This document shows positions 3,948-6,361 of a stretch of 6,361 bases of DNA, in pieces. Under the pieces are notes generated by a model. The model saw nothing but the letters and a program-made list of their open reading frames with translations. It did no database searches and was not told the DNA's origin. Position 1 is the stretch's first letter. Every line of letters starts with the position of its first letter. Both the position numbers and the translations under genes were made by a program. The stretch comes from Opitutus sp. GAS368 (GTDB lineage: Bacteria; Verrucomicrobiota; Verrucomicrobiae; Opitutales; UBA953). The DNA is taken from assembly GCA_943332745.1 (NCBI GenBank), contig CALQQQ010000070.1, positions 1-6,361 of the forward strand. The letters are read 5' to 3'.

Positions 3948-4019
3948 GCGCACATCCACGCCGAATCCCCGGCGTTTGGGAAATCAGGAGAAAGCCCAAG
4001 GGTAAGGCACCGAATCCGC

Positions 4020-4048
4020 TTGAGGGAAGACCCCAGTCGCCGTTGAAT
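4020..4048 (+). promoter_or_regulatory. Candidate sigma-70 promoter of tRNA-Ser
   Basis: TTGAGG (4020-4025) and TTGAAT (4043-4048) are separated by exactly 17 bases, and each matches 4 of 6 consensus positions. A start about seven bases after the -10 would fall near 4055, leaving a leader of only a few bases before the tRNA at 4058. The same TTGAAT hexamer lies at 5797-5802, six bases before the second tRNA copy, but there no good -35 is visible at the right distance. Confidence 0.42.
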
Positions 4049-4057
4049 CCCGCTTAC

Positions 4058-4142
4058 GGAGAGGTGGCAGAGTGGTCGATTGCAGCTGACTTGAAATCAG
4101 CCGAGCCGCAAGGCTCCGGGGGTTCGAATCCCTCCCTCTCCG
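4058..4142 (+). tRNA. tRNA-Ser(UGA), intact
   Basis: This is a class II tRNA of 85 nt. The acceptor stem GGAGAGG (4058-4064) pairs with CCTCTCC (4135-4141), with discriminator G at 4142. The D-stem is present. The anticodon stem GCTGA/TCAGC (4085-4089 with 4097-4101) encloses loop CTTGAAA with anticodon TGA at 4092-4094, which reads UCA and, by wobble, other UCN serine codons. The long variable arm GAGCC-GCAA-GGCTC (4103-4116) is the serine identity feature. The T-arm has loop TTCGAAT (4123-4129). CCA is not encoded (CCC follows), so it must be added after transcription. The next gene ends on the opposite strand only four bases downstream, and no hairpin terminator is visible. A near-identical interrupted copy lies 1751 bases downstream. 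Confidence 0.97.
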
Positions 4143-4145
4143 CCC
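4058..4145 (+). repeat. Direct repeat, copy 1 (tRNA-Ser unit)
   Basis: The tRNA plus three following C residues is repeated at 5809-5967. The 5' 70 bases match with three substitutions, and the last 19 bases (AATCCCTCCCTCTCCGCCC) match exactly. Outside these limits similarity falls off quickly. The two copies face the same way and enclose the low-GC Sel1-like gene, so homologous recombination between them would delete about 1.75 kb. Confidence 0.9.
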
Positions 4146-4146
4146 C

Positions 4147-5568
4147 TTATTTCGGTTTATTTTCTTTCCTGTGTTCTTCCGATTCCGTCTTTAGGACTAG
4201 GAACCGAGATTTAGCCGAATCGGAGATGGTCTTCGTGAACTCTGGTTTTCTTGCGATATTATCACGTTCAGCTTTACATGAGCCCTGCGTTGATAACTCG
4301 GGGCTGTAGTCTCTTGAGTTCAGGATATGTCCGAGCGGTTTTTCATCGTCGGCGACGATGTTGTATTGTTTACGGACAATCACAGTTGGCTCTGCTGCCA
4401 GCATGAACCAGGCGTATGCCTCGATTAAATTTGAGATATCTTTTTTAATAAAATCTTCGTAAGTAGTAATATCTAGGAAAGTCATGTAGTAAATTTGCCC
4501 CATCCATCTCTGGCTCTGCTTGCATCCAAGAAGTGCTGAAGATCTGTACCACTTAATGGCTTCTCCCAGATTTTTTTCGGTGCCTTTACCTTGTTCGTGA
4601 AACCTACCGAGTTGGTATTGAGCCATGCGATGGTTCTTAAGCGCGGCTTTCTTCATCCAAGTAAAAGCCTCAAAGTAGTCCAGGGCGACTACGCGGAAAT
4701 GAATTTGAGCGTAATGAAGTCCCAATTCGTACTGGGCTTGGGCATCGCCTGCCTCGGCTTTGGATTTGTCGACGCTGAATTGTTCTTCAGGGGTAAGTGG
4801 CGCCTTTTCTGGCTCTGAGAACGCAGGAGGGGCTTGGGCTTGCATCGGTAACCCAGGAGGGGGTGGGGCTGGCATCGGTGCGGGTGCGGCGCCTGTTTTG
4901 GCGACATGCTCCGTAATGCTCCCCTCTTTGATCAAATCTGCAAGTTTTGGTCTCTCTGGCAGCGCGCCCGAGAAGATGAGAGAAAAATTCTCCTGATTGG
5001 CGATGCTTCCGTAAGCGTTGCAATTTTCGCAAGGTAATTCCCCGATCCCGCCCGTTGCGATAATCCCGGGCCTAGATCGCTTTCCATCGCAGCGCGGGCA
5101 TTTCTCGATGGAGTTGATTTGGATAACCGGTCTAGCTTCGGCAGCGAAATGGGCAAACTCATTCAACGTCAGTTTTGTTGCTGGTGTTTTGGCGTTGTTG
5201 GTAAGTATGTATTTTCCTTCAGAGTTTAGTGCATACATCTCCCTGAATGCTTTCCAGATGTGCCCGAACTTCTGGTTGGTTTCCAGTCTGCCAAATTGCC
5301 CGATTTTACCAAGGTCGAAAGTAGCACTGCTTGAAAGTGTTTTCAGACTACCGAAATAGTTGTAGTCGAGTTGCGCTCCATTTACGTAATAGCGCCATGT
5401 ACCGTTCTCGTAATATCTCTGCACGTAGCCGTAGGATGGGACGTTATAGGTAGAGTATTGATTCGAATAGCTATTCACGGTTTGCCCGCCGATGGTCGTC
5501 GTGGTGATTTTTTGTCCATGGGCCAAGCCAGCGATTAAGACTAAAAAAATCGTTAGAGTGTTTTTCAT
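4147..5568 (-). CDS. Exported Sel1-like repeat protein with CxxC pairs
   Basis: The 473-residue protein begins with a signal peptide (Lys-Asn, hydrophobic TIFLVLIAGLA, likely cleavage after Gly18), so it is probably periplasmic or secreted. Residues 20-75 are rich in Tyr, Asn, Ser and Thr. Two cysteine pairs, CPRCDG (157-162) and CENCNAYG (180-187), 19 residues apart, resemble half of a DnaJ-type zinc-binding region. A Pro/Ala linker (226-250) leads to Sel1-like repeats. The clearest is AQYQLGRFHEQGKGTEKNLG (316-335), continuing EAIKWYRSSA; a preceding one starts near 271 and a longer degenerate one ends AYAWFMLAA near 392. The tail is Lys/Glu-rich. Such repeats usually hold protein partners; none is identifiable here. 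The start has no Shine-Dalgarno. GC content is visibly lower than in the neighbours, and the gene sits between two tRNA-Ser copies, which suggests acquisition. Family assignment is good, function unknown. Confidence 0.85.
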   Translation of the reverse strand: MKNTLTIFLVLIAGLAHGQKITTTTIGGQTVNSYSNQYSTYNVPSYGYVQRYYENGTWRYYVNGAQLDYNYFGSLKTLSSSATFDLGKIGQFGRLETNQKFGHIWKAFREMYALNSEGKYILTNNAKTPATKLTLNEFAHFAAEARPVIQINSIEKCPRCDGKRSRPGIIATGGIGELPCENCNAYGSIANQENFSLIFSGALPERPKLADLIKEGSITEHVAKTGAAPAPMPAPPPPGLPMQAQAPPAFSEPEKAPLTPEEQFSVDKSKAEAGDAQAQYELGLHYAQIHFRVVALDYFEAFTWMKKAALKNHRMAQYQLGRFHEQGKGTEKNLGEAIKWYRSSALLGCKQSQRWMGQIYYMTFLDITTYEDFIKKDISNLIEAYAWFMLAAEPTVIVRKQYNIVADDEKPLGHILNSRDYSPELSTQGSCKAERDNIARKPEFTKTISDSAKSRFLVLKTESEEHRKENKPK

Positions 5569-5583
5569 TACTTAGTAATAAAA

Positions 5584-5616
5584 AGTTGTATTTTTGATTA
5601 AGCAAGCACTACAACT
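5584..5616. repeat. Short inverted repeat before the Sel1-like gene
   Basis: AGTTGTA (5584-5590) and TACAACT (5610-5616) are a perfect 7-bp inverted repeat around a 19-base spacer, starting 15 bases before the Sel1-like start codon. On the minus strand the second arm is followed by TTTTTATT, so it has the outline of an AT-rich terminator or attenuator, but an operator is equally possible. The stem is weak and could be chance. Confidence 0.35.
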
Positions 5617-5642: not shown

Positions 5643-5706
5643 TGTGTGGTTTCGGTTTGCGTGGCTAAGAATTGGCATGCTTCAAAGTATAGCACGAAAT
5701 CACACA
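5643..5706. repeat. 12-bp imperfect inverted repeat with 40-nt loop
   Basis: Bases 5643-5654 (TGTGTGGTTTCG) pair with 5695-5706 (CGAAATCACACA) over 12 positions: eleven Watson-Crick and one G-T. The repeat sits in the AT-rich intergenic DNA and has no T-run after either arm, so it is not an obvious terminator. It could be a binding site or the relic of a mobile element end. Confidence 0.5.
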
Positions 5707-5808
5707 GACCGATCATCGTTAATTCTGATACGGGCTATCGGGCAGGGTGCGAAAGGTAGACGCCGAGCTCCGGCCAGTAGGGCCAGCGCAAAGCCTTTGA
5801 ATAAACCC

Positions 5809-5964
5809 GGAGGGGTGGTAGAGTGGTCGATTGCAGCTGACTTGAAATCAGCCGAGCCGCAATGCTCCGGGGGTTCGGCGAAGGCTGCAAGGCCGAGCAG
5901 GCAATGCCGTGAGGCATTGGACCGATAGGTTCGAAGCGAAGCGTAGCCAATCCCTCCCTCTCCG
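5809..5964 (+). pseudogene. tRNA-Ser(UGA) copy interrupted in the T-loop by 71 nt
   Basis: The 156 bases equal the 85-nt tRNA-Ser at 4058 plus exactly 71 extra. The 5' part runs from GGAGGGG (5809-5815) through anticodon TGA (5843-5845) to TTCG (5874-5877). The 3' part runs from AAT (5949-5951) through CCTCTCC (5957-5963) to discriminator G (5964). Only three bases differ. A to G at acceptor position 5 and C to T at D-stem position 11 both keep pairing as G-U. G to T at 5863 opens the innermost variable-stem pair. The insertion separates positions 57 and 58 in standard numbering, so the T-loop cannot form as usual unless the insert is removed or loops out. The default call is a pseudogene. 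The preserved pairing and the TTGAAT box at 5797 leave open that it is transcribed. Standard tRNA finders would probably miss it. Confidence 0.72.
5878..5948 (+). other. 71-nt structured insert within tRNA T-loop
   Basis: The boundaries are set by comparison with the intact copy: TTCG ends at 5877 and AATC begins at 5949. A 7-bp stem, CAATGCC/GGCATTG (5902-5908 with 5913-5919), is capped by GTGA, a GNRA-type tetraloop. A 4-bp GACC/GGTT stem with a GATA loop follows (5920-5931). GGCTGC (5883-5888) pairs with GTAGCC (5943-5948) including one G-U, closing the insert up to its last base. GCGAAG occurs at both 5878 and 5936, and GGTTCG at both 5872 and 5928, so the insert carries a small direct repeat of the T-loop motif. 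It is far too short for a group I or II intron and codes for nothing. Confidence 0.7.
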
Positions 5965-6109
5965 CCCTTACTTTTAGGCTGTCTCCACGATGCCGGGCTC
6001 GAAAGTTTTGGTCTCTTTATTTCAACAAGAGATGAAGGAAACCCTATTATGGCAGGCTGGGCCTTGCGGCTTGAACCTTATGGGCGGGATGGTGTCCTAG
6101 GGAGGACGG
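5965..6109 (+). promoter_or_regulatory. Intergenic leader region of the cytochrome-like gene
   Basis: The region holds a small hairpin, GTCTCTT/AAGAGAT (6011-6017 with 6027-6033), which is not followed by a T-run. TATTAT (6045-6050) is a good -10 match (5 of 6), but the only -35 candidate, TTCAAC (6021-6026), is poor and 18 bases away. If used, it would give a leader of about 50 bases. No tRNA terminator is evident after 5964. Confidence 0.3.
6099..6106 (+). promoter_or_regulatory. Shine-Dalgarno of the cytochrome-like gene
   Basis: AGGGAGGA ends three bases before the ATG at 6110, with the GGAGG core four bases away, a strong ribosome binding site. It fixes the start and stands out because none of the other starts in the window has one. 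GTCC (6094-6097) and GGAC (6104-6107) could form a small hairpin that partly covers it. Confidence 0.7.
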
Positions 6110-6361
6110 ATGCGACCCCTGAATCCGAGAAGCCCCCTGCGACGTCTGTTTGCACTGACGTCAGGGTTACTGTTGTCCGTCTCGTTGCTTCAGGCCGACG
6201 ACTATGCCGACAAGGTCTTGCCCATTCTGAAGGACTCCTGCCTGACCTGCCACTCGACCAAGAAGCAGAAGGGCGATGTAGACCTGGAGCAATTCGCGTC
6301 TGTCGCCGATATTCGTCGCTCCCCCAAGGTCTGGGAGGCGGTGCTGGAACAGGTGGCCAGC
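6110..6361 (+). CDS. Planctomycete-type cytochrome c domain protein, N-terminal part (DUF1592/PSCyt1-like)
   Basis: Only the first 84 codons are in the window, and the frame runs open to the last base. Residues 1-29 form a signal peptide: basic start with Arg 2, 7, 11 and 12, hydrophobic LFALTSGLLLSVSLL, likely cleavage after QA at 29. The mature part begins DDYADKVLPILKDSC and carries one haem c motif, CLTCH (44-48), followed by KKQKGDVDL, then a Trp at 75. The pattern of CxxCH, K-x-K-G-D-x-x-L and a later K-V-W-x-x-V matches the N-terminal haem domain of the large exported PSCyt1/DUF1587-DUF1592-DUF1588-DUF1585 proteins, which are abundant in Planctomycetes and Verrucomicrobia and are linked to polysaccharide breakdown gene sets. 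The full protein should be several hundred residues long. The downstream domain order cannot be checked here. Confidence 0.82.
   Translation, partial: MRPLNPRSPLRRLFALTSGLLLSVSLLQADDYADKVLPILKDSCLTCHSTKKQKGDVDLEQFASVADIRRSPKVWEAVLEQVAS

Follow-up and report, generated by a model that had tools for sequence, protein, structure and literature searches.

How does a tRNA gene come to carry 71 additional nucleotides within its T-loop? The window (the whole stretch of 6,361 nucleotides analysed here) contains an intact tRNA-Ser(UGA) gene at 4058-4142 (+ strand; called by ARAGORN, 58 bits in the Rfam tRNA model) and, 1.7 kb from it on the same strand, a second and longer version at 5809-5966. Aligned with the intact copy, the second version comprises tRNA nt 1-57 in canonical numbering (5809-5877, 66 of 69 nucleotides identical to 4058-4126), an insert of 71 nt (5878-5948) and a copy of tRNA nt 58-75 (5949-5966, identical to 4127-4144), all on the + strand. 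The insert falls between positions 57 and 58 of the T-loop, and both of its bounds are unique, as neither junction can be moved by even one base. The coordinates, anatomy and T-loop placement given in the original prediction, which had described an exact 71-nt insertion into a tRNA gene complete on both sides, are confirmed by this comparison with the intact copy. The 5′ part differs from the intact gene at three tRNA positions, 5 (A>G), 11 (C>T) and 55 (G>T); one variable-stem pair is lost, and the other two changes produce G-U pairs. Only the intact gene is called as a tRNA by ARAGORN, or by Rfam at its gathering score, and 5809-5964 gives a partial match of 17 bits to the Rfam tRNA model (gathering 29). 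Reading of the sequence reveals no direct repeat flanking the insert, and a promoter scan finds no site close upstream of either tRNA-Ser copy.

The locus at 5809-5966 is very probably a second tRNA-Ser(UGA) gene fused with an RtT-like repeat unit. In many of 45 loci from relatives, the sequence GGGTTCG, a core matched by blastn to the 71 nt of the window and a tRNA 3′ end together form a separate repeat, which stands on the same strand and 3′ of an intact tRNA-Ser; this comparison yields 34 matches, including partial ones and the window copy. The DUF2851 protein encoded near the fusion has relatives of up to 93% identity, found in genomes whose labels are mostly Opitutae, Opitutus or Verrucomicrobia, which makes the window Opitutae-like. 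A free unit consists, in order, of a closing strand GAGGGATGAGAACCC, GGGTTCG, a core of ~70 nt and the copied tRNA 3′ end, and four such units follow one another head to tail in locus L027 with a period of 127 nt. R1, our own covariance model built only from Opitutae units, was run on the 39 genomes that correspond to 40 of the 45 loci, and it matches 82 places in 35 of them. The core measures 61-74 nt in the 52 of these 82 units where its length can be read by pattern (71 nt in the window), and AATCCC or AACCCC is kept near the end of 63 units; truncated units without the tRNA end also exist, for example in L028, L021 and L039. The insertion is exact as far as its bounds are concerned, but what is inserted is the core of a repeat whose units relatives carry as free-standing elements behind tRNA-Ser, and the boundary falls at 57/58 because a unit with an intact end finishes in a copy of the tRNA starting at nt 58. 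The 3′ end at 5949-5966 is the repeat unit's as much as the tRNA's.

The limits of identity on either side locate the junction of the fusion. Identity to the tRNA (three changes allowed) ends at 5877 and identity to five free units starts at 5871 in each, so that the GGGTTCG at 5871-5877 (+), common to the tRNA T-arm and the repeat unit, is the likely site of crossover or deletion. When the tRNA and unit of five relatives (L010, L007, L006, L027 and L022) are joined in silico at GGGTTCG, products of 154-155 nt result, against which all 156 window columns align at 85-90% with one gap. R1 scores the fusion at 85.6 bits over 5809-5966. We also placed the window core in a tree of 44 distinct rows including the window (drawn from the 82 units and the window, with identical or unrecognisable cores left out), where it clusters with free units that two relatives carry in linkage with UGA tRNAs (98/93); this cluster lies inside the free units, in a topology with an arbitrary root and 18 weak forks among 41 inner ones. 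Since the window core is nested among free units, the free arrangement is the likelier ancestor.

From the arrangement in relatives, the ancestral order would have been tRNA, spacer and unit, the last comprising the closing strand (GAGGGATGAGAACCC..), GGGTTCG, the core and the tRNA copy from nt 58. Recombination or slippage deletion between the GGGTTCG of the T-arm and that of the unit would have deleted the original 3′ end of the tRNA together with the spacer and the 5′ strand of the unit, leaving tRNA nt 1-57, the core and the copied 3′ end, a product that would mimic an exact insertion at 57/58. We infer a deletion in cis after duplication of the tRNA, although the data fit recombination in trans as well, since the genomes searched yielded neither the ancestor (this second tRNA with a free unit behind it) nor a sister carrying the fusion. 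The original prediction had proposed looking in related genomes for tRNA genes with insertions at 57/58; no copy of the fusion turned up in 372 genomes of the order with an exact pattern limited to the UGA form, nor by blastn in 39 genomes, where the matches listed cover the tRNA side (to query position 38) or start at query position 28 at the earliest. In one relative (L039/L127), a second tRNA-Ser(UGA) at 6158-6245 carries a paired double change in the T-stem and is followed by a decayed RtT-like unit, indicating that such tRNA-unit pairs can occur beside the first tRNA-Ser in one genome.

Most free units are tied to the tRNA that they follow. A same-strand tRNA lies within 300 nt upstream of 54 of the 82 units, 53 of these being tRNA-Ser (UGA 27, GGA 12, CGA 12 and GCU 2) and one tRNA-Tyr. 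The exact nt 58-73 of the unit's own upstream tRNA is present in 37 of the 54 units, whereas 10,000 permutations average 15.2 and never exceed 25. Every unit of the 54 that has any of the seven strings carries its own tRNA's version (37 of 37), with UGA and GGA tRNAs having one common string and so not being told apart in this match; the remaining 17 units are truncated, end-changed or cut by a contig end. At 19 more loci obtained from wider searches, tRNA-Ser is upstream in 18, and most, though not all, units repeat its end. A Pelagicoccus locus (L110, genome G039) has a weak R1 match of 34.8 bits behind tRNA-Tyr, with the tRNA end copied only in part. By analogy with reports on E. coli RtT, free units are probably co-transcribed with the tRNA and would be freed by tRNA 3′-processing enzymes acting on the copied end.

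The repeat units also share a covarying fold. In an alignment of 20 of the 34 matches, with the window copy left out (A1), five helices are supported and 9 of 27 pairs change on both sides, a number that none of 500 shuffles reaches; the count of further pair types is reached by 5 of 500. RNAalifold run unaided on the unit alignment returns a fold that includes P4 and P5 but differs in part from this one. In the larger alignment A2 (72 matches, 68 of them distinct, from 60 loci), both-side changes occur in 18 of 27 pairs and 94.6% of cells pair, figures that lean towards the model because the alignment was fitted to it. The closing strand covaries with the copied tRNA end in A2, the first two pairs of the closing helix switching mainly among GC, AU, GU and UA. 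Aligned to R1, the window core contains the hairpins P3 (GGCT/GGCC, 5883-5894), with no broken pair marked and with helix support in relatives, P4 (AATGCC/GGCATT, 5903-5918) and P5 (GGACC/GGTTC, 5919-5932), the latter two with covarying pairs in relatives and all three on the + strand.

Under stricter filters, R1 matches 35 of 177 genomes of the order and 21 of 288 of the phylum, two overlapping sets from searches that include chance matches near E 1e-4 to 1e-3, and both tallies may be too high given the matches of genome G073, which lie in a repeated stretch without a tRNA. The stretch occurs there in three near-identical copies (L153, L154 and L155), each with the same core-only match of 31.7 bits, and these look like a repeated gene combined with a chance match. 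Neither the junction pattern of the fusion nor a 24-base signature of the unit has an exact match among viral contigs.

What the fusion is at present is a question apart from its origin. Its product is probably a pseudo-tRNA, because the T-loop is interrupted, the variable stem has lost one pair and the other tRNA-Ser(UGA) is intact. A pseudogene with a mobile insertion had been among the options of the original prediction, and the pseudogene half of it fits best, with fusion and not a mobile insertion as its probable origin. The pseudo-tRNA may still make a folded RtT core, and decay is not obvious, since two of the three tRNA substitutions leave a pair able to form and the hairpins of the core are likewise still paired. 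Taken by itself, the insert folds more stably than its shuffles (z -2.97); with short tRNA flanks the signal is weaker (z -1.52, 10 of 200 shuffles being equally good), and the full 156 nt fold with z -2.55.

It is unlikely that the fusion is a working RNA, either a tRNA-Ser or a tRNA-like regulator, with the RtT domain as an extended T-arm; a tolerated extended T-arm was also an option of the original prediction. The acceptor, D and anticodon stems do remain pairable, the P3-P5 pairs are kept in the R1 alignment, and the T-stem is able to replace the closing strand that the unit has lost, because the partner is in either case the same copied tRNA 3′ end. However, a cloverleaf forced on the fusion lies 8.7 kcal/mol over the free minimum (-58.9 versus -67.6), compared with 2.2 kcal/mol for the intact gene, and the T-loop is interrupted; moreover, an intact gene is present 1.7 kb away, and the fusion recurs in neither the 372 genomes searched by pattern nor the 39 searched by blastn. 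An active RNA in which the RtT domain takes the place of the tRNA-Ser T-loop appears quite unlikely. If it were true, the normal mode of RtT would be that of a structured T-arm mimic, competing with or borrowing the tRNA 3′-processing machinery, and the window would hold a natural one-piece tRNA-RtT.

Between the two tRNA-Ser copies lies a gene for a Sel1-repeat protein (4147-5568, - strand), relatives of which, 55-57% identical, are located downstream of tRNA-Ser in L006, L007, L008 and L010. GC content is 0.42-0.55 over 4001-5600 compared with 0.62-0.70 before it. A PSCyt1 cytochrome gene (6110-6361, +) follows the fusion; in L039 the place immediately after the first tRNA-Ser is taken by a relative (93% identity over 84 aa), indicating that the stretch from tRNA-Ser to PSCyt1 is variable.

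Twenty-eight units have no tRNA within 300 nt, several of them at contig ends. Nine of the 28 are preceded by solitary tRNA 3′ fragments with TTCGAATCCC that come after non-tRNA sequence, and a tenth by a tRNA cut by the contig end. The fragments (L071, L072, L082, L086 (twice), L088, L089, L091 and L102) start 38-91 nt before the units and would fit elements that integrated in the T-loop and parted the tRNA from its unit. With such fragments before nine tRNA-less units, elements may use this site in relatives, and the low-GC gene between the two tRNA copies is a further point in favour of a site-specific integration scar in the T-loop of the window. Even so, such a scar, also proposed in the original prediction, is very unlikely here and does not hold up at the right junction, which lacks TTCG and is the unit's own: it reads ..GTAGCC/AATCCC (slash, junction), as in free units (..CC/AATCCC or ..TC/AATCCC), whereas the solitary tRNA 3′ fragments elsewhere read TTCG/AATCCC. 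In addition, no integrase was found by Pfam among the six window ORFs searched.

An assembly artefact that joined two tRNA-Ser contexts is just as improbable. Contigs of relatives do end at or near the tRNA or the unit (L001, L002, L004, L009, L014 and L025), but no more than 7 nt are common to both sides of the junction, three substitutions separate the 5′ part from the intact copy, and the upstream flank at 5569-5808 matches nothing among the relative loci compared. Insertion of a 71-nt mobile element or intron in the T-loop is hardly credible: the bounds are precise, the core alone is strongly structured and truncated units without the tRNA end occur, but 63 of the 82 units keep AATCCC or AACCCC near the end, free units show the same 3′ junction, the insert has no direct repeats on its flanks and the core-only matches of G073 look like chance. 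An integron-like cassette array, considered for the units about 2 kb apart in L010 and L028, was rejected, as the repeats are explained by their relation to RtT.

The fusion of a tRNA-Ser(UGA) gene with an RtT-like unit illustrates how a tRNA 3′ repeat that captures a tRNA gene can pass for an intron. The Opitutae RtT-related family displays two regularities, namely intact 3′ ends equal to the adjacent tRNA from nt 58 onward and a closing strand that covaries with this copied end, and these constrain RtT function in a testable way. An RtT-like family with exact copying of tRNA ends is the more valuable lead, the fusion itself being a curiosity.

Group I introns interrupt bacterial tRNA genes, and the window shares with them a split tRNA gene; here, in contrast, the intervening sequence is 71 nt long and sits in the T-loop, and no Rfam intron family matches 5700-6100 up to E 10. 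Rickettsia-type palindromic elements, likewise short and structured repeats, can occur within RNA genes; the units described here are set apart from them, by description, in that most are tied to tRNA 3′ ends. The consensus of sX4 (RF02223, a Proteobacterial sRNA) has a tRNA-Ser-like stretch ending GGGGGUUCG and, later, UGAGA. It matches tRNA-Ser together with unit starts at 24-49 bits, with none of the scans reaching its gathering score of 70, and covers the tRNA but not the core. One such match spans L007 5745-5921, and the UGAGA equals the RtT-like start; sX4 may be a composite of tRNA-Ser and RtT.

To our knowledge, the function of RtT is unsettled. In the open-licence literature, none of the matches listed is on point by title for rttR, T-loop insertions or such repeats, and we found nothing relevant joining rtT, tRNA and Verrucomicrobia. 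RtT RNAs have been described from gammaproteobacteria (PMC4986893, PMC2965389); in the RtT context two give Northern signals in Actinobacillus (PMC4986893), enterobacterial attenuator candidates include rtT-like elements (PMC2965389), and a covariation study mentions a tandem GA motif in RtT (PMC7657543).

The free units are RtT-related, because the Rfam RtT model aligns with them over its full length and R1 finds the tyrT repeats of E. coli. The Rfam model (RF00391) aligns from position 1 to 130 of 130. Nine loci were scanned and eight gave matches, at 26-38 bits and all under the model's gathering score of 45; L006 has no match and both matches in L036 are weak (E 0.6-0.7). Across the order, RF00391 matches 9 of 177 genomes at E <= 0.001, one of them above the cut-off (G085, 45.2 bits), and among 14 control genomes scanned it matches E. 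coli only. No RF00391 match up to E 10 is found at 5700-6100 of the window, because the 5′ strand of the window copy is gone. In the reverse direction, R1 run on the E. coli K-12 tyrT-tyrV region (3,001 bases) recovers four repeats at 40-42 bits, one inside the annotated rttR, with rough E-values of 1.4e-9 to 3.4e-9 and a next best match there of 8.5 bits. The E. coli unit ends with the tRNA-Tyr 3′ end from AATCC on, and the repeated stretch continues past CCA. RtT (RF00391/rttR) and the free units thus have in common a position behind a tRNA, an end that copies this tRNA from nt 58 on, an occasional tandem arrangement, GGATGAGAAC, a GCG.AGCG stretch and the P4/P5 hairpins. By contrast, the tRNAs of the Opitutae units are mainly serine tRNAs (53 of 54) with tRNA-Tyr occurring once, and the window copy further departs from RtT in having lost the 5′ closing strand and being fused into the tRNA itself.
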